Source of the DNA: Paracoccaceae bacterium
GTDB taxonomy: Bacteria > Pseudomonadota > Alphaproteobacteria > Rhodobacterales > Rhodobacteraceae
NCBI GenBank assembly: GCA_020832655.1
Contig: JAFIEF010000032.1
Coordinates: forward strand, 1 to 35,707
Direction of reading: 5' to 3'
DNA: 35,707 bases
Under the pieces are notes generated by a model, which saw only the letters and a list, made by a program, of their open reading frames with translations, was not told the origin of the DNA and ran no database searches. Every line of letters starts with the position of its first letter. The stretch's first letter is position 1. Shown piece by piece: positions 4,072 through 18,834 of this stretch. The position numbers and the translations under genes are program-made.

Positions 4072-4664
4072 GCGCAAACCCGCAGCCAGTCGCGCATCCG
4101 CGCCTCCGGGTCGGGGTTAAGCGTGATATCGGTCACGGCAGAGACAGTATCAGCCCAGGCCTCGAATGCGCCCGGCGCGCGTTCGACGCTCATGCCGCCA
4201 ATTGCGCAAAGGGGAATATCGCCCACCAGCCCTTTCCATTCGGTGACCCGCTTCAGCCCTTGGCTGTGCCATTTCATCGCCTTCAGGATGGTCGGATAGA
4301 CTGGCCCCAGCGCGACATAATCAGGCGACAGCGCCAAGGCGCGGTCGAGTTCCGCATGGTCATGCGTGGAGATGCCCAGTTTCAAACCAGCACGGCGGAT
4401 CGCGGGGATATCGGCCGTGTCCAGATCCTCCTGCCCCAGATGCAGCCAGTCCGCGCCTTCCTCGACAGCAAGTTGCCAATGGTCATTGACCACCAGCGCC
4501 GCGCCATGTGCCCGCGCCATTGCCAGCCCGGCGCGGATATCCAGCCGCAGCGCGTTGATGTCACGCTTCTTGATGCGCAGCTGCACCAGCTTTACGCCCA
4601 GCGGCAGGGCACGTTCCAGCCACGCAACGGAATCGAAGATAGGGTAGAAGCGGGGCAGCGTCAT
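4068..4664 (-). CDS. thiE: Thiamin-phosphate synthase (ThiE)
   Basis: Joins HMP pyrophosphate and carboxythiazole phosphate to give thiamin phosphate. The 198-residue TIM-barrel protein carries the family landmarks: QLRIKK near residue 26, VVNDHWQLA with the Mg-binding aspartate, [30 protein letters not shown] and CAIGG. The start is the ATG at 4664, which overlaps the thiG stop in ATGA. A much longer in-frame reading upstream runs through thiG and is rejected. It is somewhat short but complete through the last strand. The [10 protein letters not shown] version of the phosphate-binding segment resembles alphaproteobacterial ThiE paralogues, so a ThiE-like paralogue is possible but less likely, since it is the only ThiE in the operon. 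Confidence 0.9.
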
Positions 4665-5422
4665 AGCCAGGCCTTGCCGATAACAGGGGTCGAGGGCTGG
4701 GCCATGTCGCGCGGGGTCATCGGATCGGCACCCTTGGCCAGTGCCCCCGCCTGCACAGCCAGCGCGAAAGCCCGCGCCATGACCACCGGATCGCCCGCCT
4801 CCGCCACAGCAGTGTTCAGCAGCACCGCGTCGAAGCCCATTTCCAGCGCGTCGGCGGCATGGCTGGGCAGGCCAAGTCCTGCATCGATCACCATCGGCAC
4901 GTCGGGGAAGGCCGCGCGCAGGGTGCGCAGCCCATAGCGGTTGTTCAGCCCCAGCCCCGAACCGATGGGCGCGCCCCAGGGCATCAGAACGCGCGCGCCC
5001 GCATCCAGCAGACGCGCGGCCAGAACCTGATCCTCGGTCATGTAGGGGAACACCTCGAACCCGTTGGCGGCCAACGCCTCGGTTGCTTCCAACAGGGCGA
5101 ACGGGTCGGGTTGCAGCGTGTCCGCATGGCCGATCACTTCCAGCTTGATCCAGTTGGTTTCGAACAACTCGCGCGCCATCTGGGCTGTGGTGATCGCCTC
5201 GCGCGCTGTATAGCAGCCCGCTGTATTCGGCAGGATATGCACGCCCAGCCCCTTGATGATGTCCCAGAATACCTGACCCTGACCGCCCTCGCGGCGCAGC
5301 GACACTGTTGCAACCGATGCGCCAGACTGACGAAACGCGGCTTCCAGCACCGCGGGCGAAGGATATTGCGCTGTGCCCAGCATCAGCGGGCATGTCAGCG
5401 AGACGCCATAGAAATCGCGCAT
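4661..5422 (-). CDS. thiG: Thiazole synthase (ThiG)
   Basis: Condenses deoxyxylulose 5-phosphate, dehydroglycine and ThiS-thiocarboxylate into the thiazole ring. The 253-residue protein starts MRDFYGVSL and contains the Schiff-base lysine in NWIKLEVIG (Lys93), the [12 protein letters not shown] segment (about 58-69), the [12 protein letters not shown] phosphate-binding loop and the [17 protein letters not shown] helix. The start ATG at 5422 follows the thiS stop after four bases, and the sequence GAGGGG across that junction can act as ribosome binding site. ThiS-ThiG adjacency fits the ThiS/ThiG complex. Dehydroglycine would come from ThiO rather than ThiH in this operon. Confidence 0.95.
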
Positions 5423-5426
5423 CCCC

Positions 5427-5624
5427 TCAGCCCCCCTGCATCGGCGCCAGCACTTCCAGCCGGTCGCCGTCTTGCAGCGCGGTATCTGCCCGTGCGGCCT
5501 TGGGCACGAAAGCACCATTGACCGCCGTGGCCACGCGGGCATCAGACCAGCCAAGCTCGACCAGAACATCTGCCAGCGTCGGACCCGTCACCTCGCGCGG
5601 CTCTCCATTCGTCTCAATCTTCAT
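5427..5624 (-). CDS. thiS: Sulfur carrier protein ThiS
   Basis: Ubiquitin-like sulfur carrier of 65 residues ending in the required Gly-Gly (APMQGG), whose terminal carboxyl is adenylated by ThiF and turned into thiocarboxylate. The sequence follows the family layout: short strand MKIETNG, a helix [10 protein letters not shown], the conserved [10 protein letters not shown] segment and the [13 protein letters not shown] tail. The gene overlaps the end of thiO by 11 bases and lies four bases before thiG. Length and the double glycine leave little doubt. Confidence 0.95.
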
Positions 5625-6582
5625 GGACCAGATCCCCCTTGATGCCTTTTGTCAGATAATCGACGGCTTGCGCGGCCAGTGCCGGCGCCATCAGATAGCC
5701 ATGACGAAACAGCCCGTTCAGATGCAGCACCCGGCCCCGGACCGTCACGCGCGGCACATTATCGGGATAGGCCGGGCGCAGATCGGCGCCGGTTTCCAGC
5801 AACTCGGCCTCGGCAAAGCGCGCATCAAGCGCATAGGCGGCGGACAGCAATTCCAGCAACGAGCGTGCCGAAACGCCCCGGCGGTCGGCGCTTTCGATCT
5901 GGGTCGCGCCAAGCATGTAAACGCCATCGCCCCGCGGCACGATGTAGAGCGGATGACGCGGATGCAGCAGACGGATCGGGCGGGTCAGGGCGATGTCGGG
6001 CGCATTCAGCACGGCCATTTCGCCGCGCACGGCACGCAGGCCGGGCAGATCGGCGGCCATGCCGCGCGCGTCGATCACCGGGCCGTCGATCTGGTCGGGC
6101 GCGGCATCGCCGGTTTCGACTTCGATGTCGCGTTCGGCCAGCGCCGCAACCAGATCGGAAAGCGCCGCGCGGGGATCGAGATGCGCCTCTTCGGCAAAGA
6201 ACAGCGCCTGTTTGAGGCCATGCAGATCAGGTTCCAACTGGTGCAGCCCGTCGGCAATCAGCGTGTGCCCGGTTGTGCGGCGCCCAAAGCGGGCAAGCTC
6301 GCTTGTGTCGCGATCCAGCGCCACGACAAGCGAGCCGCGACGCGCAACCGGTGTCACCTCTGCCCAGAAGGTCGCTGCGCGCTGCCCATGCGCGACGATT
6401 GCAGGCTCTGCCACAGCGCCTTCGCAAGACGGCGCCAGCATGCCCCCGGCCCACCAGGAACAGCCATGCGGCCCCGGTTCACCCCAGCGGTCAATCAGGC
6501 GCGGATGCAGCCCCGCCTTGCTGCATTCCCATGCGGCGCATAGTCCGGCGACCCCCGCCCCGATGATGGTGACTTCAGCCAT
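5614..6582 (-). CDS. thiO: Glycine oxidase (ThiO), FAD-dependent
   Basis: FAD enzyme of the D-amino acid oxidase fold that oxidises glycine to dehydroglycine with oxygen, feeding ThiG. The 322-residue protein starts MAEVTIIGAGVAGLCAAWE, with the dinucleotide-binding GxGxxG (about residues 8-13). Later come PHGCSWWAGGMLAP and the C-terminal VRGRVLHLNGLFRHGYLMAPALA block that closes over FAD. The ATG overlaps the last eight bases of thiD; an upstream extension lies inside thiD. Using ThiO instead of radical-SAM ThiH points to aerobic thiazole synthesis. A related amino-acid oxidase is possible by fold alone, but the position before thiS-thiG settles it. Confidence 0.9.
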   Translation of the reverse strand: MAEVTIIGAGVAGLCAAWECSKAGLHPRLIDRWGEPGPHGCSWWAGGMLAPSCEGAVAEPAIVAHGQRAATFWAEVTPVARRGSLVVALDRDTSELARFGRRTTGHTLIADGLHQLEPDLHGLKQALFFAEEAHLDPRAALSDLVAALAERDIEVETGDAAPDQIDGPVIDARGMAADLPGLRAVRGEMAVLNAPDIALTRPIRLLHPRHPLYIVPRGDGVYMLGATQIESADRRGVSARSLLELLSAAYALDARFAEAELLETGADLRPAYPDNVPRVTVRGRVLHLNGLFRHGYLMAPALAAQAVDYLTKGIKGDLVHED

Positions 6583-7378
6583 TGGACCAGACCTTGTGGA
6601 AATGGTGCACTGGCCCGTGACCGGATCCGACCGCCAGCCGATCCGCAGCCGCAATCGCGCCTTGCAGATAGCCATGCGCGCGCACCACGGCTGCCGACAG
6701 GGTCATGCCCTGCGCCAGTGCCGCCGCAATGGCTGCCGACAGGGTGCAGCCAGTGCCATGCGTGTTGCGCGTATCAATGCGCGGTGCGACCAGCCGCATG
6801 GTGTCAGTCGCAGTGACCAGTAGATCGACACATTCCGCCCCTGCCGCATGACCGCCCTTCATGAGCACGGCCTGCGCTCCCATAGCGCGCAGCGCATGGG
6901 CCTGTCGGATCATCTCGGCCTCGCTTTGCGCGACTGCGCAGCCCAGCAGGTCAGACGCTTCAGGAAGGTTCGGTGTCAGCACTGTCGCGCGCGGCAGAAG
7001 CAGGCTGCGCAACGCGTCAAGCGCGTCAGCGGGCAGCAGGCGGTCGCCGGATTTGGCTACCATGACCGGGTCCAGAACAACCGGCAGGTCGCGCCCCTCC
7101 AGCCCCTGCGCGACAGTCGCAATCACGTCTCGCGCGCCCAGCATGCCAAGCTTGACCGCGCGCACATCCAGATCGTCGAACACTGCGGCCATCTGCGCCG
7201 CGATCATATCAACGCTGGCAGGCTCGACCATGATGACGGTGCGGGTGTTCTGCGCGGTCAGGGCCGTTATGACGCTGGCGCCATAAATGCCGAGCGCTGA
7301 AAACGCCTTCAGATCCGCCTGAATGCCTGCGCCGCCGCCCGAGTCGGACCCTGCTATGGTCAGTGCGATTGAAACCAA
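6575..7378 (-). CDS. thiD: HMP / HMP-phosphate kinase (ThiD), probable TTG start
   Basis: Phosphorylates HMP to HMP-P and HMP-PP. The ribokinase-fold protein opens SIALTIAGSDSGGGAGIQAD and has the NTHGTGCTLSAAIAA anion hole with catalytic Asp replaced in the usual ThiD manner by Cys (GTGCT). I set the start at TTG (7378-7376), giving 267 residues. The strong ribosome binding site AAGGAG ends directly against the upstream ATG (7384-7382), leaving no spacer, while the TTG two codons later sits six bases after it and gives the usual short ThiD N-terminus. First gene of the operon, directly controlled by the TPP riboswitch and the ribosome-site hairpin upstream. The eight-base overlap with thiO implies coupled translation. 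Confidence 0.88.
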   Translation of the reverse strand: MVSIALTIAGSDSGGGAGIQADLKAFSALGIYGASVITALTAQNTRTVIMVEPASVDMIAAQMAAVFDDLDVRAVKLGMLGARDVIATVAQGLEGRDLPVVLDPVMVAKSGDRLLPADALDALRSLLLPRATVLTPNLPEASDLLGCAVAQSEAEMIRQAHALRAMGAQAVLMKGGHAAGAECVDLLVTATDTMRLVAPRIDTRNTHGTGCTLSAAIAAALAQGMTLSAAVVRAHGYLQGAIAAADRLAVGSGHGPVHHFHKVWSNG

Positions 7379-7383
7379 CTGCA

Positions 7384-7414
7384 TCTCCTTGCTTCTGGAA
7401 TCAGCGCAAGAAGA
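7384..7414 (-). promoter_or_regulatory. Ribosome-site-sequestering hairpin (riboswitch expression platform)
   Basis: On the minus strand TCTTCTTGC (7414-7406) pairs with GCAAGGAGA (7392-7384): nine consecutive pairs, one of them G-U, around a 13-base loop. The 3' arm contains the whole AAGGAG ribosome binding site of thiD. No U-run follows, so it looks like a translational switch, not a transcription terminator. It lies about 30 bases after the TPP aptamer. Confidence 0.7.
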
Positions 7415-7444
7415 CGGACGAGACGCGATTTGCCGCGCGTTTTT

Positions 7445-7527
7445 ACCGTTCCCTACGCCGGTATGATCCGGATCAGGTTCGATGGGTTGGCTTTCGCCTC
7501 TCAGCCCGGACAGGGCACCCCAACGGT
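7445..7527 (-). promoter_or_regulatory. TPP riboswitch (THI element)
   Basis: The minus strand carries the conserved thi-box parts in order: CTGAGA (7504-7499), ACCTGATCCGGATCATACC (pyrophosphate and pyrimidine pockets) and GGCGTAGGGAA. Helix P1 closes the aptamer by pairing ACCGTT (7527-7522) with AACGGT (7450-7445). It should bind thiamin pyrophosphate and switch off the ten-gene thi operon. A THI element this complete needs no protein evidence. Confidence 0.97.
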
Positions 7528-7905
7528 TACATTGCAGAGCTAACACTCAACACTGGCGAAGACAAGTCCTGTGAAAAAGGCAACAATTTCAAAGCCTGGG
7601 CCAGGGTTGCGTCAAACCCCGAGACGACCCCCGGCACAGCTTGCCCTGCCACGAAGTGCAGCCAGAGGCCGCAACGACAGTGCAACAGCCCTATAGCGGC
7701 GCAGACGGGATGTGAAAGAAATGGCTGCGAAAAGCACTGAATGTCTGCATCCCAGACTACCCATAAGCATACATGCAGGCCGCCCCAGGTCATTCACGTC
7801 CAGATGGTTCGCGCCTGTGCAAGGGGCGGGAAGCGGGGTTGCCGCTGGTGGCCAAAGCTACCGGCGGCCATGCCAGCCGTCACCGACGGCAGGGGGCGGG
7901 CTAAG
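7528..7905 (-). promoter_or_regulatory. Intergenic region with candidate thi promoter
   Basis: About 380 bases between dgcN and the thi leader hold no convincing gene on either strand. On the minus strand TTGTCT (7565-7560) and TTAGCT (7543-7538), 16 bases apart, form a modest sigma-70-like promoter whose start would fall just ahead of the riboswitch. GCCGTC-ACC-GACGGC (7877-7891) is a perfect small hairpin 15 bases after the dgcN stop, but without a T-run. It may help end the dgcN operon. Confidence 0.4.
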
Positions 7906-8940
7906 CTACTGCACTACTGCCATTGCCAGCTTCGCGGCACCATGTCGTACCGGATCACTGGCGGGCAAGCCGGTGTCATCTTCGGCCGATTTCAGCGCCG
8001 CTTCGGCCTCTGCCGGTGTCAGGCGTGCGGTGTTCAGGGCGATGGCAACCACTCTGGCCGGTGTCAGCGCGCCTGCGGCGTGGGCCACGGCTTCGTTCAG
8101 GGCGATCACATCACGCAGCGGCGGAATGCGCACATGGTCCAACTCGTCAAGCGTTTGCATGCCCGCACGGTGGCACAGGATCATATGGGTGCAGGCAGAG
8201 CCGCGCATCAGCGGCAGGGTCGCGGTGCTGCCCGGATGCAGCAGCGAGCCTTGCCCCTCGACCACGACAATCTCGTGGCTGGCGGCATCCAGCACCATGC
8301 GTTCAACCGAACCGCCCGCATGATCAACGCGGATCGCGTCCAGCGGGATGCCGCGCCCGGTGATGGCAATGCCGGTCTGGCCTGTGGCCAGAAACGCCGC
8401 ATCGCGCCCCAATTCCTGCAAGCTGCGGGTCAGTTCCAGCCCGGCGGTCATCTTGCCGATGGCCATGTCGGTGCCCACCATCAGCACGCGCCTATTGCCC
8501 AGGCTGGCCGCGCGCGCCATGCTGATCGGGGGCGCGTCGCCTTGCGGCACGCGCAGATCCCACACCCATTGCCCTGCGCGCAGCCGGTCTTGAAACATGG
8601 GCTGCAAGCGGTCATGCATACCGTTGACCAGCGACATTCCCGCCGCCACGGCCTGTTCCAGCACCGACACCCAGGCCGGCGGCAAACGCCCCCCAGAGGG
8701 TGCCGTGCCCAGAACCAGAACCTGCGCGCCAAGCGCCTGCGCATCTGCCAGCGTCGCCACAACCGGCACATCGCTGTCTAGCGCACACAGATCGCCCACG
8801 CGCTTGCGCGCCTGTGTGCTGTCTATCACCGCCACCACCGGATTGCGGCCATAGCGCAGGATGCCCTCGGCCATCTTGGCGTTCAGGCTGCCCATAGTGG
8901 CCTCTGCAAACAGCGCGATGGGCTGGGTTGGATCAAGCAT
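7906..8940 (-). CDS. dgcN: D-glutamate N-acetyltransferase DgcN (DUF1611 family)
   Basis: DUF1611-family P-loop protein. In marine bacteria and haloarchaea, DgcN acetylates D-glutamate and DgcA racemises the product, leading to L-glutamate (published knowledge of the family, not visible here). The 344-residue protein begins with a Rossmann-like domain (IALFAEATMG) and has the P-loop GTDMAIGKMT (about 157-166), then IVVVEGQGSLLHPGS and THMILCHRAG blocks typical of the family. The ATG is at 8940, eight bases inside the end of dgcA. It is the last gene of the long minus-strand operon. Whether its substrate here is D-glutamate or another amino acid handled by the operon is open. Confidence 0.82.
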   Translation of the reverse strand: MLDPTQPIALFAEATMGSLNAKMAEGILRYGRNPVVAVIDSTQARKRVGDLCALDSDVPVVATLADAQALGAQVLVLGTAPSGGRLPPAWVSVLEQAVAAGMSLVNGMHDRLQPMFQDRLRAGQWVWDLRVPQGDAPPISMARAASLGNRRVLMVGTDMAIGKMTAGLELTRSLQELGRDAAFLATGQTGIAITGRGIPLDAIRVDHAGGSVERMVLDAASHEIVVVEGQGSLLHPGSTATLPLMRGSACTHMILCHRAGMQTLDELDHVRIPPLRDVIALNEAVAHAAGALTPARVVAIALNTARLTPAEAEAALKSAEDDTGLPASDPVRHGAAKLAMAVVQ

Positions 8941-9964
8941 GCAGGGTTCCTCCGTGGCCGGGCTGGTCTGCGGGCAGGGTGACGCCATCCTGGAAGGGCG
9001 CGCCACTGGCCGGGTCCGGGTCAAGGTTCAGATGGGAATCAAGATCGATATAGTCGAACAACGCCGAAAGCGACGCGCCTGCGGCAATCGAGACCGAGCT
9101 TTCGCCCATGCAACCGATCATCGTGCGCAACCCATACGCGCGGGCGGTGGCGACAATGCGCAGCGCCTCGGTAATGCCGCCGCATTTCATCAGCTTCAAA
9201 TTCACCCCGTCCGCGCAATGGGCAAAGCGCGGGATGTCGGCGGAAAAACGGCAGGATTCATCGACGAAAATCGGCAAGGCGCGGGTCTTGAACAATTCGG
9301 GCAACTGGTCTTCTGCCCCTTCAACAAGCGGTTGTTCGACATATTCCACGCCCCGCGCGGCCAGCCAGCCCATCATCTGGCGCGCATCCTCCAGCGACCA
9401 GCCGCCATTGGCGTCAACCCGCAACACCGCGCCGCTGCCTGCCGCTGCCTGATGCACTGCCGCAAACATGGCCTTGTCGGCCTCTATCCCGTCCGCGCTG
9501 CCCAGCTTGATTTTCAGCGCCCGCGCGCCGCGTTCCAGCAGTAGCGGCACACGCTCGCGCACCACCTCTGGCAGGTTGATGCCCACGGTCAGCGACGACA
9601 CCACACCCCGCCGCGCCAACCCCAGAAGCCTGTATAGCGGCATCCCCGCCTGTTTGGCACGCAGATCCCACAGCGCCATATCCAGCGCCGCCAACGCGCA
9701 CGCGCCCGCACCGCCCGCATGGGCCTGCGCCCAGATGTCGTGGATCGCGCCGTTCAGCCCGCCCGCGCAAAACGCCTCTAGCTGCGCGCGGCCTTCGGCA
9801 ACAGTCGCCGCGCCCTCGGTCGCGCCTAGGGCCATCTCGCCCCAGCCCGTATGCGTACCGTCGCTGACGGACAAGAACAGGTTTTCGCCGCCCGCAATCT
9901 CGCCGCGCGAAATGCGCAAGGGGAAGCGCTTTTTCAGATACAATGTGTGAAAGTCAACCTTCAT
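8933..9964 (-). CDS. dgcA: N-acetyl-D-glutamate racemase / dipeptide epimerase DgcA
   Basis: Enolase-superfamily enzyme of the muconate-lactonising / Ala-Glu epimerase group that takes the alpha-proton from an acylated amino acid. The 343-residue protein has the full active site: KIK (Lys151, Lys153), metal ligands in RVDANGG (Asp184), VEQPL (Glu210) and VDES (Asp235), and the opposing lysine in NLKLMKCGG. Having a lysine on each side of the pocket fits 1,1-proton transfer, that is racemisation. It overlaps the deacetylase-like gene upstream by four bases (ATGA) and dgcN downstream by eight. Paired with dgcN it is most likely DgcA; a murein-peptide epimerase would be the alternative. Confidence 0.85.
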   Translation of the reverse strand: MKVDFHTLYLKKRFPLRISRGEIAGGENLFLSVSDGTHTGWGEMALGATEGAATVAEGRAQLEAFCAGGLNGAIHDIWAQAHAGGAGACALAALDMALWDLRAKQAGMPLYRLLGLARRGVVSSLTVGINLPEVVRERVPLLLERGARALKIKLGSADGIEADKAMFAAVHQAAAGSGAVLRVDANGGWSLEDARQMMGWLAARGVEYVEQPLVEGAEDQLPELFKTRALPIFVDESCRFSADIPRFAHCADGVNLKLMKCGGITEALRIVATARAYGLRTMIGCMGESSVSIAAGASLSALFDYIDLDSHLNLDPDPASGAPFQDGVTLPADQPGHGGTLHA

Positions 9965-10977
9965 GAAACCCCGCCAAGAAAGGCCGTCAGATTATCCGCC
10001 AGCGCGTCGCTGACATAGCCGCCTTCCTGCACCAGTACCAGCGGCAGGCCCAGCCCGGCAATCGCCCGCGCCATCGCCTGAAAGCACGGCGTTGTGATCG
10101 CCAGCCCGCGGAAAGGGTCGTCAATATGCGCGTCCAGCCCCAGCGCCACCACCACCACATCTGCGCCAAACGCGCTTATGCGCGCCAGTGCTGTATCGAG
10201 GGTTTTCATATACCCGTCATCACCCGTCCCACGCGGCAGGGGCAGATTCAGGTTAAAGCCCATCCCGCGCCCTTCACCACGTTCCTGCGCGCCGCCCCAG
10301 AAGAACGGGTAGAAGCGGTCGGGGTCGGCGTGCAGCGACACGGTCAGCACATCATCGCGGGCATAGAAGATGCCCTGTGTGCCATTGCCGTGATGCACAT
10401 CGACATCCAGAATGGCGGGCCGCAGCCCTTGCACGCGCAAGCGTTCTGCCGCGATGGCGGAATTGTTCAGGAAACAAAAGCCGCCTGCCAGATCGCTGAA
10501 CGCATGATGGCCGGGCGGGCGCGAGAGCACATAGACCGCAGCCTCGCCGCCCGCCACCAGATCGGCCCCGGTGATCGCCGATTGCGCGGACCAATAGGCA
10601 GCATCCCATGTCTGCGCACCAATGGGGCAGGCGGTGTCGGCCTGATGATAGCCTGCCTGCCCGATGGCGGATTTCGGGTAATTGTCGCCCCGCGTGGCGG
10701 GGTGGATATTGGGGATCACCTCTGGCCCGGCATCGGGGATGCGCAGCCAGCGCGGATAGATCGTGCGCAGAAAATGCAGATATTCGGCGCTGTGAATCGC
10801 CGCAATGGGGCCAGGCCCGGCATCCTGCGGTGCCGTGAACCTGCACCCCGCCGCCCTGGCCCCCGCCATCAGGCGGGCAATGCGTTCGGGCGCTTCGGGG
10901 CTGGGATAGGTCTTGCCATTGGCCATGAAATGCTGTGGGTCATGCAGGCGCTGGCGGTCGTCGAATATGGCTTTCAT
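9961..10977 (-). CDS. Histone-deacetylase-fold amidohydrolase, acetylpolyamine-amidohydrolase-like
   Basis: Zinc deacetylase of 338 residues. Active-site parts are all present: RPPGHHA (His158, His159), DVDVHHGNGTQ (zinc Asp193 and His195), SLHADPDRFYP, GLDAH (zinc Asp282) and the transition-state tyrosine in QEGGY (Tyr321). Length and residue spacing match bacterial acetylpolyamine amidohydrolases, which act on small acetylated amines, better than protein deacetylases. It overlaps the GNAT gene upstream and dgcA downstream (ATGA at both), so its substrate should be an acetylated intermediate of this operon. I infer 4-acetamidobutyrate or its CoA ester, or an incoming N-acetyl diamino acid. 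N-acetylglutamate from DgcN/DgcA is another option. Confidence 0.85.
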   Translation of the reverse strand: MKAIFDDRQRLHDPQHFMANGKTYPSPEAPERIARLMAGARAAGCRFTAPQDAGPGPIAAIHSAEYLHFLRTIYPRWLRIPDAGPEVIPNIHPATRGDNYPKSAIGQAGYHQADTACPIGAQTWDAAYWSAQSAITGADLVAGGEAAVYVLSRPPGHHAFSDLAGGFCFLNNSAIAAERLRVQGLRPAILDVDVHHGNGTQGIFYARDDVLTVSLHADPDRFYPFFWGGAQERGEGRGMGFNLNLPLPRGTGDDGYMKTLDTALARISAFGADVVVVALGLDAHIDDPFRGLAITTPCFQAMARAIAGLGLPLVLVQEGGYVSDALADNLTAFLGGVS

Positions 10978-11462
10978 GCGGTCCTCTTGATCAGTTCTGC
11001 CACGCCCTGCGGGGCAAGGCGCATCTCCTGCATCCCGCGCGCGGGTTCAAAGCCCAGCCGCTGATAGAAGGCTTGCGCGTCTTCACTGTGGTCATAGACG
11101 GCAAGCTTCAGCCATGTTGCCTGCCAGCGCGCCACGCCTTCGCGCGCGATCCGTGCCAGCAACTTTGCGCCAAGCCCCTGACCGCGTGCCTGCGCGCTGA
11201 CCCACAGATCGGACACATACAGCCCCGCCGCGCCGCGCACGGTCGAAAACAGCGGGCTGTAAAGCGCCGCGCCAAGGGTCTGATCCCCCTGCATGGCCAA
11301 CAGCCCATGCGCGGATGGCGGCACCCCCAGAACCGCCTTCTCCAGCACGGCACTGTCGGTGGCGTAATCCTCGGCAATATCTGCGCTCAGCGCGCGCAAG
11401 GCTGCTTCCAGCCGCGCCAGATCATCCACGCCCGCGACTGTGCGAAACGCGATGTCACGCAT
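10974..11462 (-). CDS. GNAT-family amine N-acetyltransferase
   Basis: Single-domain GNAT enzyme of 162 residues that would transfer acetyl from acetyl-CoA to a small amine. Acetyl-CoA binding motif A is clear in LWVSAQARGQGLGAKLL (about 98-114), followed by motif B with the AQAFYQRLGFEPA segment. The overall arrangement, with LYVSDLWV before motif A, resembles the spermidine/spermine acetyltransferase layout, though this is only a visual impression. It overlaps the BKACE gene by eight bases and the deacetylase by four. An acetyltransferase next to a deacetylase in one operon suggests that an amine is acetylated for protection and freed later. Substrate inferred: beta-lysine N6 or a comparable terminal amine. 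Confidence 0.8.
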   Translation of the reverse strand: MRDIAFRTVAGVDDLARLEAALRALSADIAEDYATDSAVLEKAVLGVPPSAHGLLAMQGDQTLGAALYSPLFSTVRGAAGLYVSDLWVSAQARGQGLGAKLLARIAREGVARWQATWLKLAVYDHSEDAQAFYQRLGFEPARGMQEMRLAPQGVAELIKRTA

Positions 11463-12381
11463 TGATGCCCCCCGCGCCCTTCAGCCCCAGCGTGGCGCGT
11501 AGCTGATCGGGGGTCATCACCACACGGCCCAGCCGCTCCACGATCTCGCGGATCTTGACCACCTGCTCGGCGTTCGAGCGCGCAAGCTGGCCGCGCGCGA
11601 TTGTCAGGCTGTCTTCCAGCCCCACGCGCACATGCCCGCCCATTGCCGCCGCCATGGTGATCAGCGGCATCTGAAACCGCCCCGCCGCCAGCACCGAAAA
11701 CAGGTAATCCCCACCAAACAGCTTGTCGGCTATCCGCACCATATGAGACAGGTTTTCAGGGTCCGGCCCCATGCCCCCCAGTACGCCGAACACGAACTGG
11801 ATGAAGTATGGCGGCTGCACCAGGCCACGGTCCGCGAAATGGCGCAGCATGTAAAGATGGCTCAGATCATAGCATTCAAACTCGAACCGCGCGCCGCGCT
11901 CCTGGCCAAGCTTGCTCAGGATGCAGGCAATGTCGCGCGGCGTGTTCTTGAACACCAGATCATTGGTGTTTTCCAGAAACGGCTTTTCCCAGTCATGCAG
12001 CCAGTCGCGATCCTTTCCCAGCATCGGATAGAGCGCGAAATTCATCGTGCCCATGTTCAGCGAGGCCATTTCCGGCGCTATTGCCAAGGGCGCGGCAAGG
12101 CGCTCGTCCAGTGACATGACCGCACTTCCGCCCGTGGACAGGTTCAGCACCGCGTCTGTTTCCTGCGCCAGCGCGGGAACAAAACCGTTGAAATGCTCCA
12201 GCGCCGCCGAGGGGCGCCCGCTCAACGGATCGCGCGCATGCAGATGCAGGATGGACGCGCCCGCGCGCGCCGCTTCGATACCCTGACGCGCGATATCTGC
12301 GCCGTTGATCGGCAGATGTGGCGACATGCTGGGTGTGTGGATGGATCCCGTCAGCGCGCAGGTGATGATGATGCCCGACAT
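11455..12381 (-). CDS. Beta-keto acid cleavage enzyme (BKACE, DUF849)
   Basis: Zinc-dependent enzyme that splits a beta-keto acid with acetyl-CoA into acetoacetate and a new acyl-CoA. The founding member, Kce, acts on 3-keto-5-aminohexanoate in lysine fermentation. The 308-residue TIM barrel has IITCALTGSIHTPSMSPHLP at the N-terminus, the zinc pair HLHARDP, STGGS, MASLNMGTMNF, FVFGVLGGMGPDPENL and the zinc glutamate in VRVGLEDSL. The start ATG is at 12381, four bases after the aminotransferase stop. The aminotransferase just upstream could make its beta-keto acid substrate. The exact substrate cannot be read from sequence here. Confidence 0.9.
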   Translation of the reverse strand: MSGIIITCALTGSIHTPSMSPHLPINGADIARQGIEAARAGASILHLHARDPLSGRPSAALEHFNGFVPALAQETDAVLNLSTGGSAVMSLDERLAAPLAIAPEMASLNMGTMNFALYPMLGKDRDWLHDWEKPFLENTNDLVFKNTPRDIACILSKLGQERGARFEFECYDLSHLYMLRHFADRGLVQPPYFIQFVFGVLGGMGPDPENLSHMVRIADKLFGGDYLFSVLAAGRFQMPLITMAAAMGGHVRVGLEDSLTIARGQLARSNAEQVVKIREIVERLGRVVMTPDQLRATLGLKGAGGINA

Positions 12382-12385
12382 CCGC

Positions 12386-13720
12386 TTACACCATTTCCGA
12401 CAGTGCCAGTTCATCGACCAGCCGGGTCAGCGCGGCGTCAAGCGTGTCGGTGATCTCGTCCAGATGCGCCTCGGTCACGATCAGGGGCGGACAAACCATG
12501 ATATGGTCGCCCTCCACCCCGTCGCGGGTGCGGCGCGAATAGATGATCAATCCCATCTCATAGGCGATATCGACAAGGCGCTGATGCGCGTTCAGACGGG
12601 CAGGCAGCGGGGCTTTCGTGTCATGATCGGCCATCAACTCGAAGGCCATCAGCAACCCTTTGCCGCGCACATCGCCGATGATCGGATGACGCGCCATCAA
12701 CCCGTCCAGCCGTGCGCGCAGCGCGTGGCCCATCATTTCGGCATTCTGCACCAAACCCAGCCGCGCGATCTCGTCGATCACCGCCGCGCCCGCCGCGCAG
12801 GCCAGCGGATTGCCCGCATAGGTGAAGCCATGCTGGAAGCCGCCGCCCTTCAGCACCGCGCCCACCAGATCATCGCGCGCCGCAATCGCGCCAAGCGGCA
12901 CATATCCGGCTGCAAACCCCTTGGACAACACCACGATATCGGGCGACAATCCCCAATGTTCCAGCCCCAGAAACCGGCCTGTGCGGCCTGCGCCGGTCAT
13001 CACCTCATCCAGGATCAGCAGCACACCGTAGCGGCGGCATATGTCCTGCACGGCCTGCATATACCCCACAGGTGGCACCAGCGCACCGGTTGACGCGCCG
13101 CCAATGGGTTCGACAATGAAGGCCAGCACCGACTCCGTCCCCTGCGCGATGATCTCGGCCTCCAGCATCGCGGCGTAATGCACGCCAGTGGCGGGGTCGG
13201 CGGGGTCCAGCCCGTCCAGATAGGCGCGCGGGGCGGGGATTTTCGGCATCGCGCGCATCATCGGGGCGAATGGCTCGCTCAGCGGCGCATACCCCGTGAT
13301 GGCCAGCGCGCCCAGCGTGCACCCATGATAACTGGGGGCGCGGCTGATGACCTTCCAGCGGGCGCCCTGACCCACGGCCAGCGCATGCTGGCGCGCCAGT
13401 TTGATCGCGGATTCCACCGCTTCCGACCCGCCAGAGACGAAATACACCTTGTTCATCCCGTCCGGGCACAACGCGGCTGTCCGCGCAGCCAGCGATTCCG
13501 AGGCTTCAGTCTCGAAATGCAGCCGGTAGCCAAAGGTGGATTTTTCCATCTGGCGGCGCATGGCATCCAGAACGCGCGGGTTGGAATGGCCGATATTGCA
13601 CACCATTGCGCCGCTTGATCCGTCCAGATAGCGCTTGCCGTCCAAGTCCCACATATAGACCCCGCGCGCCTGATCAAGCACGGGGCGGCGCTGGCCGGTC
13701 TGATAGAATAGATGGCTCAT
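12386..13720 (-). CDS. Class III aminotransferase (PLP-dependent)
   Basis: PLP enzyme of the omega-amino acid / 4-aminobutyrate aminotransferase class, 444 residues. Visible features are the phosphate-binding VSGGSEAVESAIKLARQ (about 95-111), the aromatic YHGCTLGALA, the cofactor-ring aspartate in LILDEVMTGAGRTG (Asp238) and the Schiff-base lysine in VVLSKGFAAGY (Lys267). The chosen ATG (13720) lies five bases after the ABC ATPase stop; a longer reading would overlap that gene. Class III enzymes often remove amino groups distant from the alpha carbon, including beta-amino groups, which would yield the beta-keto acid for the BKACE next door. Specific substrate unknown; N6-acetyl-beta-lysine is my proposal. 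Confidence 0.88.
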   Translation of the reverse strand: MSHLFYQTGQRRPVLDQARGVYMWDLDGKRYLDGSSGAMVCNIGHSNPRVLDAMRRQMEKSTFGYRLHFETEASESLAARTAALCPDGMNKVYFVSGGSEAVESAIKLARQHALAVGQGARWKVISRAPSYHGCTLGALAITGYAPLSEPFAPMMRAMPKIPAPRAYLDGLDPADPATGVHYAAMLEAEIIAQGTESVLAFIVEPIGGASTGALVPPVGYMQAVQDICRRYGVLLILDEVMTGAGRTGRFLGLEHWGLSPDIVVLSKGFAAGYVPLGAIAARDDLVGAVLKGGGFQHGFTYAGNPLACAAGAAVIDEIARLGLVQNAEMMGHALRARLDGLMARHPIIGDVRGKGLLMAFELMADHDTKAPLPARLNAHQRLVDIAYEMGLIIYSRRTRDGVEGDHIMVCPPLIVTEAHLDEITDTLDAALTRLVDELALSEMV

Positions 13721-13725
13721 GTCAG

Positions 13726-14799
13726 TTATCCGGGCAGGGCCGCGCAATCCTGCGGCCTGAGCGTCAGATGCACTTGCGCGCCAACCGCAAATGGGCGTTC
13801 ATCGATCATGTTGATGGCCTGCAACTGCGTATCACCGGCGCGCACGAAATAGCGCACCGACTGACCCTGATAATCCACTGTTTCGACAGTGGCGGGCGCG
13901 GAAAATGCGCCGCTTTCGGGCGGGGCATCGCGCAACAGCAGCTTTTCAGCACGGATCACCAGCTTGGCCGCCCCTTCACCCGCCAGATGCGGCGCCTTGG
14001 CCGACGGAACAATGACCTTGCCGAAGACCGGCACCTCCAGCACCGCCCCATCCGGCCCGCGCGACAGGCAGCGCCCGCCCAGAATGTTGGATGCGCCCAG
14101 AAACCGTGCCACGAATTCACTGGCCGGGGTGTTATAGACTTCTTCAGGGGCGCCCACCTGCTCCACCTTGCCATCCGACATGACCACGATCTGATCAGAC
14201 ATCGCCAGCGCCTCGGACTGGTCATGCGTGACGAACACCGTCGTCACCCCAATACGAGACTGGATGTTCTTCAACTCCACCCGCATATCCTCGCGCAGAT
14301 TGGCATCGAGCGCGGAAAGTGGTTCATCCAGCAGCAGCACATCGGGTTCGATGACGATGGCGCGCGCAAGGGCGATGCGCTGTTGCTGCCCGCCCGACAG
14401 CGCCTTGGGGTAGCGGTTTGCCACCTGCGGCAGTTGCACCAGCTCCAGCGCGTCCTGGACCCGCCGCGCGATATCGGCGCGCGGCACATTGCGATACCGC
14501 AGCCCGAAACCCACATTATCTGCCACGGTCTTGTGCGGAAACAACGCGTAATTCTGGAACACCAGCCCCAGATTGCGCTTGTGGATCGGCACATCATTGA
14601 CGCGCTTGCCATTGATGATGATCTCGCCCTCGCTTGGGTCCAGAAGCCCGGCGATCATGCGCAGGGTTGTGGTCTTGCCGCAGCCTGACGGTCCCAGCAG
14701 CGTGGTGAAGCTGCCCTCTGGTATCTGCATCGACGTCTGCTCAACCGCTGTGAACGTGCCAAAGCGCTTGACGATATTGTTCAGAGTGACCGCGCCCAT
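13726..14799 (-). CDS. ABC ATPase, polyamine-type (PotA-like)
   Basis: ATPase subunit of a PotABCD-type importer, 357 residues. It has Walker A GPSGCGKTT, Q-loop VFQNYALFPH, signature LSGGQQQRIALARA, Walker B LLLDEPLSALD and switch VTHDQSEAL. A C-terminal TOBE/OB extension follows (about 240-357), as in PotA, FbpC and related regulatory ATPases. The ATG at 14799 follows a GGCGG element; the upstream extension carries no family sequence. It lies 108 bp after the binding-protein gene, separated by a strong hairpin, and is followed by the aminotransferase. A cationic amine or amino-acid substrate is inferred from the catabolic genes, not from the ATPase itself. Confidence 0.9.
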   Translation of the reverse strand: MGAVTLNNIVKRFGTFTAVEQTSMQIPEGSFTTLLGPSGCGKTTTLRMIAGLLDPSEGEIIINGKRVNDVPIHKRNLGLVFQNYALFPHKTVADNVGFGLRYRNVPRADIARRVQDALELVQLPQVANRYPKALSGGQQQRIALARAIVIEPDVLLLDEPLSALDANLREDMRVELKNIQSRIGVTTVFVTHDQSEALAMSDQIVVMSDGKVEQVGAPEEVYNTPASEFVARFLGASNILGGRCLSRGPDGAVLEVPVFGKVIVPSAKAPHLAGEGAAKLVIRAEKLLLRDAPPESGAFSAPATVETVDYQGQSVRYFVRAGDTQLQAINMIDERPFAVGAQVHLTLRPQDCAALPG

Positions 14800-14879
14800 G
14801 ATCCGCCTTTCGTATTGCGAAAGCGGCCTGCAATGCACGCGGCTTTCCCTTCATCTTGCCCGAAATACTCCGGGGGGTT

Positions 14880-14899
14880 CCGGGGGGCTGGCCCCCCGG
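14880..14899 (-). repeat. GC-rich intercistronic hairpin
   Basis: CCGGGGGGC and GCCCCCCGG, separated by two bases, form a perfect nine-pair hairpin between the binding-protein and ATPase genes. It is flanked by a second CCGGGGGG run and the phrase CCCGAAATACTCC, which I associate from memory with dispersed intergenic elements of Rhodobacterales. No T-run follows on the minus strand. A likely role is to protect or partly terminate the binding-protein mRNA, giving more binding protein than ATPase. Confidence 0.6.
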
Positions 14900-14907
14900 C
14901 CTTTCCT

Positions 14908-16050
14908 TCAGAAGCCGCGCTGCACGCGGGCGAAGGTTTCGGACCACTCGGCCTCATTGCCGTTCCAGTAGACCGGGTCGGCAAAGGTCAGCGATTCCAG
15001 CGTGCCGGTCGGGTCATAGGCGGGCAGGGTCGGGATCTTCTCGCCCAGATCGACCTTGGTGCCATCCAGCGCGGGCGGGTAGTTCTGCCCCTCGGCCACC
15101 GCGATCGAGGTTTCGGGCGCCAGCATGAAGTTCAGCAATTCCTCGCAAGCCTCAACCGGCGAGCCTTTGATCACGAACAGACATTCCTGCCAGCCAAAGC
15201 TGTTGGGCGCGTCATAATAGCCGATATCATGGCCCTGTTCCTGCAATGCCGCGATCCGGCCTGACCAGCCCTCGGTGACATAGATTTCTTCCTCGGCCAG
15301 CAGGCTCATCAGCTCGGCGCCCGAACCCCAGTATTTCAGCGCCAGATCACGATGCGCGCGGATCGCGTCCCATGCCGCGTCCATATCCTGAATGTCATTG
15401 GGGTGCTGGCCGGTTTGCAGCGCCGCATACCACAGCCGCGTGCGCCAGTCGGACCAGCCGCCGATCTTGCCCTTATAGGCTTCGTCAATCAGGATCGACG
15501 CACCCTTTTCGCGCATTTCCTCGTCCGAGATGTATTTGCGGTTATAGGCCAGCCCGGTGGTGCCGTAATTATAGGGCACAGCCGACAGATGGTCGGGCGT
15601 GATGCCCCGGAAGGCGTTGGTCAGCGCGTCCATGACCAGTTCCATATTCGGGATATTGGCAAGGTTGAGTTCCACATCCAGCCCGAAATTGACATAACGC
15701 GCATAGTCGAACACACCCGACAGATGGGCGATGTTGTATTCGCCCTCGCGCGAGGAACGCACCTGCGCCAGATATTCATCCCCGCCTGCGAATGTGCCAT
15801 CGACCACATTGATGCCTGTGGCCGCCGTGTAGGGATCAAAAGCGTGGCGGCGGAAGGCTTCCGACACCACACCGCCCCAGCCATCGAACCGCACCTGCGT
15901 CACATCCTGCGCGAAGGCCATGCGCGCAAAGGGGGTCTGCACGCCATAGGCGACACCGGCCGCACCGATCAGGCCCAGAAAGCTGCGCCGGTCCAGATCA
16001 CCATTGCGGAAGCGCTCCAGCAGGCGTTCATAACGTTTGGTATTGTCCAT
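14908..16050 (-). CDS. Tat-exported solute-binding protein, PotD-like
   Basis: Periplasmic binding protein of 380 residues for the adjacent ABC importer. It starts with a twin-arginine signal, DRRSFLGLIGAAG (about 20-32), with cleavage probably after AFA near residue 47, so it is probably exported folded by Tat. The mature part has the family-1 layout seen in PotD/PotF (VRFDGWGG, YNYGTTGLAYNRKY, YVTEGWSGRIAALQEQG, ECLFVIKGSP, NFMLAPETS). The ATG at 16050 has AAGGAGA six bases upstream, one of the strongest ribosome sites in the operon. Ligand unknown: PotD relatives bind putrescine, spermidine and other small amines or amino acids. Confidence 0.88.
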   Translation of the reverse strand: MDNTKRYERLLERFRNGDLDRRSFLGLIGAAGVAYGVQTPFARMAFAQDVTQVRFDGWGGVVSEAFRRHAFDPYTAATGINVVDGTFAGGDEYLAQVRSSREGEYNIAHLSGVFDYARYVNFGLDVELNLANIPNMELVMDALTNAFRGITPDHLSAVPYNYGTTGLAYNRKYISDEEMREKGASILIDEAYKGKIGGWSDWRTRLWYAALQTGQHPNDIQDMDAAWDAIRAHRDLALKYWGSGAELMSLLAEEEIYVTEGWSGRIAALQEQGHDIGYYDAPNSFGWQECLFVIKGSPVEACEELLNFMLAPETSIAVAEGQNYPPALDGTKVDLGEKIPTLPAYDPTGTLESLTFADPVYWNGNEAEWSETFARVQRGF

Positions 16051-16087
16051 TTCTCTTTCTCCTTGTCGGTTGGGGTTGTCGCGGTTC

Positions 16088-16891
16088 TTACATGCCGCGT
16101 TTTATCGATATCTGGCGGGCAATCGCGGCCCCCAGCAAAGGCAGGCCCACAGTGATGATGATCATCACGGTGCCCAGCGCGTTGATTTCGGGGCTGATGG
16201 AATTGCGCAGCATTGAGAAAATCTGCGTGGGCACGGTTTCCACCCCGCCCGGTTTCCAGAACAGTGTGCCGGTGATGTCATCGAAGGAAATCGTGAAGGC
16301 AAACAGCGCGCCCGCGGCCACGGCGGGCATCAGAAGCGGCAATGTGACGGAAAAGAATGTCTGGATGGGCGAGGCACCAAGGCTAAGGGCCGCTTCTTCC
16401 ACATCGCGGCGTATGGAAACCAGCCGCGCCTGCACCACCAGAATGACGAAGGGCAGCGTGAAGATGACATGCCCCGCCAGCAGCAGCGCAAAGCTCTTGC
16501 CGATGCCCAGCCAGTTCAGGAATAGTAGCAACGCCACCGCCAGCACCACTTCGGGCACCAGAATCGGCGCGATCAGGATGGTGGTGATCAGGTTCTTGCC
16601 CGGAATGGCGTAACGCACCAGTGCAAGGCTTGCCAGCACCCCCAGCGTGGTGGAAATCAGCGCCGTCAGCAGGCCAAGGATCAGCGAGGTACGAAAAGCC
16701 CGCATCACGGCGTCATTGTTCCACAATGCCTCGAACCAGCGCAGCGAAAAGCCGGTCATCGGGAAGCTGCCGAACTGATTCTGGTTGAAGGACAGCAGAA
16801 CCACCACGGCCACCGGCAGGAACATGAACAGATACACAAGTATCGTATATGCGCGGATTGCAGCCCAACCCATTTTTCCGCCCCCGCCCAT
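16088..16891 (-). CDS. ABC permease, PotC-like
   Basis: Second membrane subunit of the polyamine-type importer, 267 residues with six hydrophobic segments. The start region ILVYLFMFLPVAVVVLLSFN and the coupling loop EEAALSLGASPIQTFFSVTLPLLMPA (split here: EEAALSLGAS at about residue 190) are typical of PotC/YdcV. The ATG at 16891 overlaps the last base of the previous permease stop (TGATG). A second in-frame ATG at 16873, preceded by a G-rich run, is an equally plausible start and would shorten the protein by six residues. A downstream AAGGAGA leads into the binding-protein gene. Confidence 0.87.
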   Translation of the reverse strand: MGGGGKMGWAAIRAYTILVYLFMFLPVAVVVLLSFNQNQFGSFPMTGFSLRWFEALWNNDAVMRAFRTSLILGLLTALISTTLGVLASLALVRYAIPGKNLITTILIAPILVPEVVLAVALLLFLNWLGIGKSFALLLAGHVIFTLPFVILVVQARLVSIRRDVEEAALSLGASPIQTFFSVTLPLLMPAVAAGALFAFTISFDDITGTLFWKPGGVETVPTQIFSMLRNSISPEINALGTVMIIITVGLPLLGAAIARQISIKRGM

Positions 16892-17757
16892 CAGCCCAAG
16901 CCTTTCGTCAGTTGCGACATGCCCAGATAGCGGTTGTAAAGTGCGACCAGCGCGCCCAGCACGATCAGCAGAAGCAGCGACAGGGCAGACCCCATCGGCC
17001 AGTTCAACTGCGTGATGATCGCCTCGAACACCAGATTGGCAAACATCGCATCGCGCGGGCCGCCAAGGATCAGCGGGGTGATATAGGTGCCTGCCCCCAG
17101 CACGAAACACAGCAAGCCCCCCGCCGCCAGTCCGGGCAGCGACAGGGGCAGCGTGACTTGTGTGAACGCCTGCCAGCGTGTGGCGCCCAGCGATGTTGCG
17201 GCGTCTTCCAGATTGGTGTCGATCCCGTCAAGGCTGACATAGATATTCAGCACCATGAAAGGCAGCAGGAAATGCACCAGCCCCAGTATGACCGTAGCCT
17301 CGTTATAGAGCATCTGGATCGGCGAGGAGATCACGCCCATCGACATCAGCGCGGTGTTCAGCGCGCCGGAACTGCCCAGAATGTTGATCCAGCTCATCGT
17401 GCGGATGATGTAGCTGATCCAGAATGGCAGCATCAGCAGCAGAAGCAGGATCAGCTTGTTGCCGCTGGAGCGGGTGATGAAATAGGCCGCCGGATAGCCC
17501 AGCAGGGCGCAGAAGAAGGTGGTAATGGCAGCGATCTTCAGCGTGTTCAGCAGGATGTAGCGATAGAACGGATCGGTCAGCGCGCGCTGCCAGTTGTCCA
17601 GATGAAAGCCCGCAGTATCCGGCCCGACCGCCGAGCGCAGCCAGAAGGAATAGACCACGATGAACAGCAGCGGCACCAGCAACAGCAGCGTCACCGCCCC
17701 CAGCGCGGGCGCAAGCAGAACCCAGGGCTGGCGTCTTTCACGGGCTTCTACAGACAT
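16891..17757 (-). CDS. ABC permease, PotB-like
   Basis: First gene of the operon: membrane subunit of 288 residues, six hydrophobic segments, with LLAPALGAVTLLLLVPLL at the start and the coupling loop around LEDAATSLGATRWQAFTQV near residue 190. It pairs with the PotC-like permease that overlaps it. I take the ATG at 17757 because the family begins shortly before the first membrane segment. Another in-frame ATG at 17823 would add 22 residues that look like untranslated leader. Ribosome site upstream is weak. It faces the divergent LysR gene across about 108 bp. Confidence 0.87.
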   Translation of the reverse strand: MSVEARERRQPWVLLAPALGAVTLLLLVPLLFIVVYSFWLRSAVGPDTAGFHLDNWQRALTDPFYRYILLNTLKIAAITTFFCALLGYPAAYFITRSSGNKLILLLLLMLPFWISYIIRTMSWINILGSSGALNTALMSMGVISSPIQMLYNEATVILGLVHFLLPFMVLNIYVSLDGIDTNLEDAATSLGATRWQAFTQVTLPLSLPGLAAGGLLCFVLGAGTYITPLILGGPRDAMFANLVFEAIITQLNWPMGSALSLLLLIVLGALVALYNRYLGMSQLTKGLG

Positions 17758-17865: not shown

Positions 17866-18834
17866 ATGGCTAACCAGAATGATGCCGACCGACTGACCCG
17901 CGATCTGGACTGGAACCTGTTGCGCAGCTTTGTGGTGATTGCCGAATCGCGCTCGATAACGGATGCGGCGCGGCGCCTTCGCCTGACGCAGCCATCGGTG
18001 TCGACCGCGCTGCAAAAGCTTGAAAAGCTTATCGGAAAACGCCTGATAGATCGCGCACCGGGGCGGTATGATCTGACCCGCGCAGGGGCGGTGCTCTATC
18101 GCGAGGCGGTCGAGATCCACGGGTCTGTCCACAGGCTCTCGACCCTGATGCGTGATATGACCGACGAGGTACGGGGCCATGTACGCATCGCGGTTGCCAG
18201 CCATGTTGTCTGCCCATTATTTGACCACATGCTGGCCGAATTTCACGCCCGCCACCCGCGCGCCACATTGTCGATATCTGTCCTCGGCTCCAGCGCCGCG
18301 CTGGCCAGTGTCTCTGCACGCACTGCATCCTTTGCGATCTGCCTTGTGCATCGGCGCGACCCCAAGATCGAATACATGCGGCTTTACCGTGAATTCTTCG
18401 GGTTGTTCTGCGGCCCTCCACACCCGCTTTTCGGGCGCAGAAATCTGCACCAAGGCGATCTGGCGGGGCATTCCGCCGTCAGCTTCGAAACCGACAGTTT
18501 GCATGACGCCCTGCGCTCGGTGACATTGCTGCGCGCGCAATCCGAACTGAACGAACAGATCATTGGCACGTCAAGCCACCTGGAAGAAGTGCGCCGTATG
18601 GTCGTTGCCGGGCTGGGGATTGGTCCGCTGCCCTTGCATGTCGTGGCCCGCGATATGGCCGATGGCCTGCTTTGGCGCCTGCCGCCCTATGTCGATCCGC
18701 CAGCTATTGATGTGCATCTGGCCTGGAACCCCAAAGCCACCCTGAATCGCGCCGAATCATCGCTTCTTGAAATCATGCAGAATGCAATCCGAACGGTTCC
18801 AATGAGCGCGCGCACATATGGGCTTGAACTGTAA
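17866..18834 (+). CDS. LysR-family transcriptional regulator
   Basis: Regulator of 322 residues with an N-terminal winged helix-turn-helix (about 15-75), including LLRSFVVIAESRSITDAARR and LTQPSVSTALQKLEKLIG, and a C-terminal periplasmic-binding-fold effector domain (about 100-300). It is transcribed divergently from the ABC/aminotransferase/BKACE/dgc operon, the standard arrangement for a LysR activator of that operon. The effector is probably the imported compound or an intermediate. The dgcN-dgcA modules described elsewhere have a regulator named DgcR. I cannot tell from sequence whether this is its counterpart. Confidence 0.9.
   Translation: MANQNDADRLTRDLDWNLLRSFVVIAESRSITDAARRLRLTQPSVSTALQKLEKLIGKRLIDRAPGRYDLTRAGAVLYREAVEIHGSVHRLSTLMRDMTDEVRGHVRIAVASHVVCPLFDHMLAEFHARHPRATLSISVLGSSAALASVSARTASFAICLVHRRDPKIEYMRLYREFFGLFCGPPHPLFGRRNLHQGDLAGHSAVSFETDSLHDALRSVTLLRAQSELNEQIIGTSSHLEEVRRMVVAGLGIGPLPLHVVARDMADGLLWRLPPYVDPPAIDVHLAWNPKATLNRAESSLLEIMQNAIRTVPMSARTYGLEL

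Follow-up and report, generated by a model that had tools for sequence, protein, structure and literature searches.

What does the ten-gene operon on contig JAFIEF010000032.1 of Paracoccaceae bacterium (GCA_020832655.1) do? The operon lies on the minus strand at positions 7906–17757 of the stretch analysed here (the window, 35,707 nucleotides), and its core is a class III aminotransferase, a beta-keto acid cleavage enzyme (BKACE), a GNAT acetyltransferase and a zinc deacetylase. Comparison across genomes provides strong indirect evidence that the aminotransferase yields a beta-keto acid, which would then be shortened by two carbons and relieved of an N-acyl group. Our tentative answer, a little short of an even call, is that the operon may import and degrade a beta-amino acid resembling lysine, with beta-lysine or N6-acetyl-beta-lysine as the likeliest substrate. 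The comparative support covers gene content, operon conservation and the logic of beta-keto acid formation, C2 cleavage and N-deacylation; we infer the identity of the substrate, the role of the GNAT, the order of deacetylation and CoA loss, the product, and the step of the epimerase and DUF1611 protein. The genes are as follows.

7906..8946, minus: DUF1611 protein, distant DgcN relative, add-on (PF07755 and PF17396, the DUF1611 N and C domains)
8933..9964, minus: enolase-superfamily epimerase, DgcA-like, add-on (PF13378/PF02746, MLE fold)
9961..10977, minus: zinc-dependent deacetylase of the HDAC/acetylpolyamine amidohydrolase kind (PF00850, Hist_deacetyl)
10974..11462, minus: GNAT N-acetyltransferase (PF00583, 46 bits)
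11455..12384, minus: BKACE (PF05853, NF053538)
12386..13723, minus: class III aminotransferase (PF00202, Aminotran_3, 329 bits)
13726..14799, minus: PotA-type ABC importer ATPase with TOBE domain (TIGR01187, above cut-off)
14908..16050, minus: solute-binding protein, SBP_bac_8 family, distantly PotD-like (PF13416, 75 bits)
16088..16900, minus: PotC-like permease (PF00528; NF007047, 211 of 326 bits)
16891..17757, minus: PotB-like permease (PF00528; NF007044, 202 of 348 bits)
17866..18834, plus: divergent LysR-family regulator (PF00126, PF03466)

Conservation of the core and its second version

The ten genes form a single run opposite the divergent LysR gene; with the starts chosen, neighbours overlap by up to 14 bases or are separated by up to 108. 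They are transcribed in the order PotB-like and PotC-like permeases, solute-binding protein, PotA-type ATPase, class III aminotransferase, BKACE, GNAT, HDAC-type deacetylase, MLE-fold epimerase and DUF1611 protein. The operon is real: the coordinates and short spacing given in the first-pass annotation were verified, the LysR gene noted there as facing it lies at 17866–18834 (+), and the families named there for the aminotransferase, BKACE, GNAT and HDAC-type deacetylase were borne out by PF00202, PF05853, PF00583 and PF00850.

We compared all 96 loci holding a relative of the aminotransferase (E ≤ 1e-150) in a sample of 390 genomes of the order, the window's own included, and scored genes as present or absent by tblastn thresholds up to 7.5 kb from the aminotransferase. 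The aminotransferase was found in 95 of the 390 genomes (own included), in 96 places, and BKACE was in the same operon at 60 of them, where the tblastn matches to the two genes were 0–200 bases apart at 58. The same 60 loci hold an HDAC-type deacetylase at 56 and a detected GNAT at 44. Most of the 80 BKACE relatives examined keep the order aminotransferase, BKACE, often GNAT, deacetylase. Carriers of the cluster include the cultured Roseovarius mucosus DSM 17069 (L048) and Roseibium aggregatum (L061). In a phylum sample of 398 genomes, close aminotransferase relatives (E ≤ 1e-130) occurred in 21, own included, and none was outside the window's class. The 30 best NF053538 matches, which served as controls (L002–L031, approximately 1.5 kb on each side), included none with the aminotransferase or GNAT and two with a deacetylase at approximately 39% identity. 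The association between aminotransferase and BKACE exceeds chance. Conservation of the gene set as a unit across the order, which the first-pass annotation proposed to survey, holds for the aminotransferase with BKACE (60/96) and the deacetylase (56/60), but not for the GNAT (55/96) or the DgcA/DUF1611 pair (5/96). A LysR homologue (at least 38% identity) was present at 81 of the 96 loci, and the LysR regulator likely controls the operon.

At 30 of the 96 loci there is no BKACE, and the aminotransferase is followed by a 3-oxoacid CoA-transferase pair, with the GNAT between them at eight. An ArgE/DapE-family M20 deacylase replaces the HDAC-type enzyme in 29 of these 30 loci, and a thiolase is present in 19 (families were scanned on the proteins of L148, L162 and L164; the remaining loci are tblastn matches to them). 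The two versions never occur together (0/96), and six loci have neither. On a quick aminotransferase tree, which omits L240 (its match holds one stop), the version changes at least five times with the six loci of neither version excluded. One locus from another order (L148) mixes the versions, combining aminotransferase, BKACE and M20 deacylase. A search that in many genomes scored just some of the first-look candidates gave no NF053538 match (E ≤ 1e-60) in 24 of the 30 genomes with the second version, so that either the CoA-transferase pair would do that step there or the step is not needed. Unrelated enzymes would replace each other repeatedly only if they did the same job; the jobs implied here are the splitting of a beta-keto acid into an acyl-CoA and a C2 unit and the removal of an N-acyl group. 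The repeated swap, often with a thiolase, also suggests that otherwise unplaced genes in many Alphaproteobacteria share one kind of pathway, whatever its substrate.

Ten loci (L084, L085, L086, L089, L091, L093, L094, L096, L097 and L110) carry BKACE and deacetylase, mostly with a GNAT, without this aminotransferase. Near some of these loci lie further genes: in L097, by family scan, those of an MttB-like methyltransferase and of an oxidoreductase of the FadH/OYE type, in L086 that of an M19 dipeptidase, and in L089 and L097 those of peptide-type binding proteins. Another entry into the same beta-keto acid may exist there.

The core enzymes, the importers and their surroundings

The window BKACE, the single PF05853 match in its genome, scores 334.7 bits against that family (curated cut-off 24.8) and 465 bits against NF053538, 3,5-dioxohexanoate:acetyl-CoA acetone transferase (cut-off 430); against NF052387, a model of the same enzyme family and reaction type, it reaches 219 of 382 bits, below the cut-off. 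The zinc His pair and the catalytic Arg, Glu and Asp are invariant in 163 of 163 aligned rows, and Tyr172 sits at the position of the catalytic Tyr reported for BKACEs (PMC12871164). The residue counts given here are for matches spanning at least 80% of the query; their rows, like the gatekeeper counts and the 111 loci discussed below, come from two locus collections with overlapping organisms and are hence not independent. One relative with tested substrates is BKACE15 (8RIP, 343 bits to the window BKACE), which is reported to take beta-ketohexanoate, 3,5-dioxohexanoate and similar uncharged beta-keto acids (PMC11961710). Relatives at 60% identity occur in other gene contexts, and a quick, unrooted tree has a branch (SH-aLRT 88) that sets apart 37 of the 39 sampled BKACEs from outside such clusters. 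We propose that the window BKACE cleaves an N-acetyl beta-keto acid with acetyl-CoA to an acyl-CoA and acetoacetate. A family scan assigned none of the ten operon genes to an aminomutase or dehydrogenase family. Lone BKACEs in other surroundings, for example in a probable carnitine locus (as its gene names suggest) and beside P450 and acyl-CoA dehydrogenase genes, were taken to have different roles and left out of account.

The aminotransferase reaches 448 of 485 bits with PRK07483 and retains the pyridoxal phosphate Lys268 and Asp239 in 178 of 178 aligned rows; we propose it to be a beta-amino acid:2-oxo acid transaminase. The GNAT, which reaches no NCBIfam equivalog cut-off, is proposed to acetylate an omega-amine. 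The deacetylase, proposed to take off the N-acetyl group, matches 3men with 319 bits, its nearest solved structures being acetylpolyamine amidohydrolases, and its zinc ligands, two His and Tyr are kept in 145 of 145 aligned rows. Its gatekeeper motif is P-F/L-x (PFR in the window) rather than PIS in all 146 homologues of at least 50% identity; PIS is the motif reported for bacterial polyamine deacetylases (PMC11532494). L092 holds a tandem pair of HDAC-type deacetylase genes (3234–5294), whose products share 58% and 47% identity with the window deacetylase.

PotA exceeds the cut-off of the TIGR01187 polyamine subfamily (364.5 bits against 355.6), as the first-pass name of a PotABCD-type importer requires, but the solute-binding protein obtains only 28.8 of the 582 bits of the PotD model, with its best solved relative at 37 bits. 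Three importer types (Pot, PAAT and LIV) adjoin the core at different loci, and in the relatives' amino-acid importers the binding protein matches cystine and Lys/Arg/Orn models best, below cut-off. The polyamine-type importer, earlier taken to point to a dibasic substrate, therefore says little as one of three types beside the core, and we rejected it as a decisive clue, PAAT and LIV importers taking its place elsewhere.

These features bear on acetylpolyamine degradation, in which PotABCD would import polyamines and the HDAC-type enzyme would deacetylate acetylpolyamines. The PotA score and the acetylpolyamine amidohydrolases nearest to the deacetylase speak for it. Polyamines, however, have no carboxylate, so that BKACE, or the CoA transferase with thiolase, would be idle; the importer type varies, and the cluster deacetylases have replaced the PIS motif. 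We give this reading very little credence.

The Rfam scan of the window at gathering scores found nothing at the operon, its matches being a thiamine pyrophosphate (TPP) riboswitch and a tRNA gene (27735–27806, +). A run of thiamine-type genes beside the operon (4661–7546; phosphomethylpyrimidine kinase, DAO-family protein and ThiG) carries the riboswitch (75 bits, 7433–7532, −) at its 5' end. A tyrosine-recombinase-type gene (Phage_integrase with a SAM-like domain) lies at 23012–23950 (+).

Substrate, proposed pathway and competing readings

In Pseudomonas, L-beta-lysine is first acetylated at N6 and transaminated at C3 (EC 2.6.1.65); the product is then cleaved with acetyl-CoA and deacetylated (EC 3.5.1.51). 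By analogy, the PotABCD-like transporter of the window would import the substrate; if it arrives unacetylated, the GNAT would acetylate its omega-amine and so prevent the later ketone from cyclising. The aminotransferase would then convert the 3-amino group to a ketone, giving 6-acetamido-3-oxohexanoate, and BKACE would react this with acetyl-CoA to acetoacetate and 4-acetamidobutyryl-CoA. The zinc deacetylase would free acetate before or after CoA loss, and the resulting 4-aminobutyrate would pass to general metabolism. In this genome, the DgcA-like epimerase and DUF1611 protein might additionally process a D-amino acid imported or released with the substrate. The genome has a succinate-semialdehyde dehydrogenase above cut-off, a possible outlet. 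An annotated thioesterase gene adjoins the cluster on Shinella and Roseateles plasmids (L113, L116, L120), which fits hydrolysis of an acyl-CoA product.

Two considerations bear on the side chain. Once acetylated, the omega-amine of beta-lysine cannot close a five-membered ring onto the new ketone, which would be the reason for both the GNAT and the deacetylase. The preference of BKACE15 for uncharged acids fits an N-acetylated side chain, whereas free 6-amino-3-oxohexanoate and 3-oxoglutarate are charged. The uncharged-substrate BKACE relative, the lysine-type partners and the non-PIS deacetylase favour beta-lysine or N-acetyl-beta-lysine over beta-glutamate and polyamines, so that among the candidates of the first-pass annotation the former fits best and beta-glutamate poorly. 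Beta-glutamate would be transaminated to 3-oxoglutarate and cleaved by BKACE to malonyl-CoA and acetoacetate, with DgcA/DgcN serving D-glutamate, and the window does hold DgcA- and DgcN-like genes. These, however, score half of the cut-offs, the GNAT and deacetylase would be left without a role, and the characterised member of the family with which BKACE groups accepts uncharged side chains. The DauA-like and lysine-type racemase partners found elsewhere (see below) indicate basic amino acids, and beta-glutamate is highly improbable as the substrate.

Several observations weigh against beta-lysine or its N6-acetyl form. The GNAT was detected at 55 of the 96 order loci and missed at 41, and it never occurs with the racemase/M20 pair (0/52, against 12/39 without GNAT; 91 loci with enough downstream sequence, kinship ignored). 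Of the 16 misses at BKACE-version loci, one (L225) shows a partial match, and at 14 the space between BKACE and deacetylase is too small for the gene, so many of the absences would be genuine. Where the GNAT is absent, the substrate may often arrive acylated, as its avoidance of the racemase/M20 pair also suggests, or acetylation may occur elsewhere. The one-to-one mapping of four enzymes onto four steps thus stands in its step logic, which conservation and repeated swaps support well, but not in the GNAT at every locus. Two loci (L210 and L211) have neither BKACE nor CoA transferase near the rest of the core; they comprise an importer, aminotransferase, GNAT, deacetylase and a DauA-like dehydrogenase. 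NF053538 is named for a different substrate, 3,5-dioxohexanoate. No 4-aminobutyrate transaminase above the TIGR00700 cut-off was found in the window's genome, which has nine matches below it, the best being the window aminotransferase. Lysine 2,3-aminomutase (TIGR00238) was absent from the same genome and from 42 of 47 cluster genomes, so any beta-lysine would come from outside; a local source through this enzyme, present in five of the 47, was discarded, and the search neither supports nor refutes an imported substrate.

The importers add to these points, as their type follows the version: BKACE loci have 34 Pot, 10 PAAT and three LIV importers (of 60), and CoA-transferase loci 25 PAAT and three Pot (of 30). 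The two versions might therefore serve different substrates. Moreover, the best solved relatives of the PAAT binding protein are glutamine-type, ahead of Lys/Arg/Orn-type. Both results take weight from beta-lysine and shift it to the same chemistry on another N-acylated beta-amino acid, such as beta-ornithine, 3,5-diaminohexanoate, hydroxylated beta-lysine or an aminoacyl conjugate, free or acylated on import and perhaps differing between versions. The version swap fixes the beta-keto acid logic and leaves the side chain free, the GNAT is optional, and in rhizobia a DMFA2-type amidase precedes the aminotransferase; all are compatible with this explanation. Among such compounds, on the other hand, beta-lysine alone is known to us to have a biochemical route with all four steps, and, on chemical grounds, it has the spacing at which acetylation blocks five-ring closure. 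We regard another side chain as possible and clearly less probable than beta-lysine or N6-acetyl-beta-lysine.

The add-on genes raise a further question, that of the product. The DUF1611 protein reaches 231 of 480 bits with the DgcN model (NF041892) and the epimerase 190 of 400 bits with the DgcA model (NF042940), both below the equivalog cut-off. At about half of the required bits, and with the module at only five of the 96 order loci, the labels DgcN and DgcA given at first were too strong, and we rejected the pair as core genes. The nearest solved structure to the DUF1611 protein is 2obn (260 bits), and those to the epimerase are 3iji (named muconate cycloisomerase) and dipeptide epimerases. 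The KxK motif, third Lys and Mg ligands are kept in 10 of 10 homologues, and the DgcA-like protein is probably an N-acyl-amino-acid or dipeptide epimerase.

Other loci carry other add-ons, and these are mutually exclusive: among 111 loci, 33 have a DauA-like gene, 21 a DMFA2 amidase, five DgcA and four a racemase with M20, and among the 96 order loci the numbers are 20, one, five and 12, with one more M20 alone. The DauA-like D-arginine dehydrogenase (289 bits) is accompanied in relatives by a RidA-family protein and retains, in 43 of 52 rows, the Glu aligned to E87 of DauA. The racemase is related to lysine racemases and to racemases of broad specificity. On the quick aminotransferase tree, DgcA/DUF1611 occupies two separate places, and so does the racemase pair. 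At Hyphomicrobiales-type loci (L102, L103, L105, L107, L108, L111, L114, L118, L149–L151, L153–L155, L157, L158 and L161), a protein resembling the beta subunit of N,N-dimethylformamidase (PF20254, by a scan of L111) precedes the aminotransferase.

The usual substrates of M20 deacylases and of the DauA-like, racemase and DgcA-like enzymes are alpha-amino acids. The chemistry of beta-lysine does not supply these, and this too counts against beta-lysine. In our reading the add-ons would handle D-lysine entering by the same importer, but they could instead finish a D-amino acid product of the core. Under the latter alternative, the cleavage product would be an N-acyl-D-alpha-amino acid from a beta,gamma-diamino acid or similar substrate, and the cluster would belong to an alphaproteobacterial pathway for N-acyl beta-amino acids that is widespread, has gone unrecognised and comes in two interchangeable versions. 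Swapped modules (DauA-like dehydrogenase with RidA, DgcA-like epimerase with DUF1611, or lysine-type racemase with M20 amidohydrolase) would then finish a linear path. The recurrence of modules that never overlap, the two tree places of both DgcA/DUF1611 and racemase with M20, and the suitability of ArgE/DapE-type deacylases for alpha-amino acids agree with such a product. We nevertheless consider it unlikely: no natural substrate of that kind is known to us, 57 of the 96 order loci have no add-on within reach, and the DauA-like and racemase relatives indicate basic amino acids, a class to which the cleavage product does not have to belong. If it were true, beta,gamma-diamino acids or aminoacylated beta-lysine would be a substrate class new to catabolism.

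Comparison with known systems

We know of no genes for the Pseudomonas beta-lysine route, and no paper assigning genes to beta-lysine degradation was found in the openly licensed literature as far as it was accessible, in line with the first-pass remark that these enzymes had been described mainly without genes. As far as we have seen, then, the route is known from biochemistry without assigned genes, and its CoA-transferase version has not been described. If the operon does act on beta-lysine, genes could be assigned to enzymes so far known to us just from their activity, and it would become possible to name those who consume acetylated osmolytes of the lysine type in saline habitats.

The L-beta-lysine route of Pseudomonas is the nearest parallel, its four steps mapping, by protein family, on the GNAT, aminotransferase, BKACE and deacetylase of the window. 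The clusters differ from it in the version with CoA transferase, M20 deacylase and often thiolase, in the optional GNAT and in the attached D-amino-acid-type modules. The DgcN-DgcA D-glutamate pathway likewise has a DUF1611 protein and an MLE-fold epimerase side by side, but the window pair falls far below the equivalog cut-offs and lies within another operon. With the acetylpolyamine amidohydrolases (cluster 4 classical deacylases), the window deacetylase shares the RPPGHH and EGGY motifs and the zinc site, whereas their PIS gatekeeper is P-F/L-x in the cluster enzymes (146/146). BKACE15 of Paracoccus denitrificans (8RIP), of the BKACE family (DUF849), is homologous to the window BKACE over its full length and has the catalytic residues and Tyr in common with it. 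The two differ in context: BKACE15 has been suggested to act in aromatic degradation (PMC11961710), whereas the window BKACE belongs to an aminotransferase operon.

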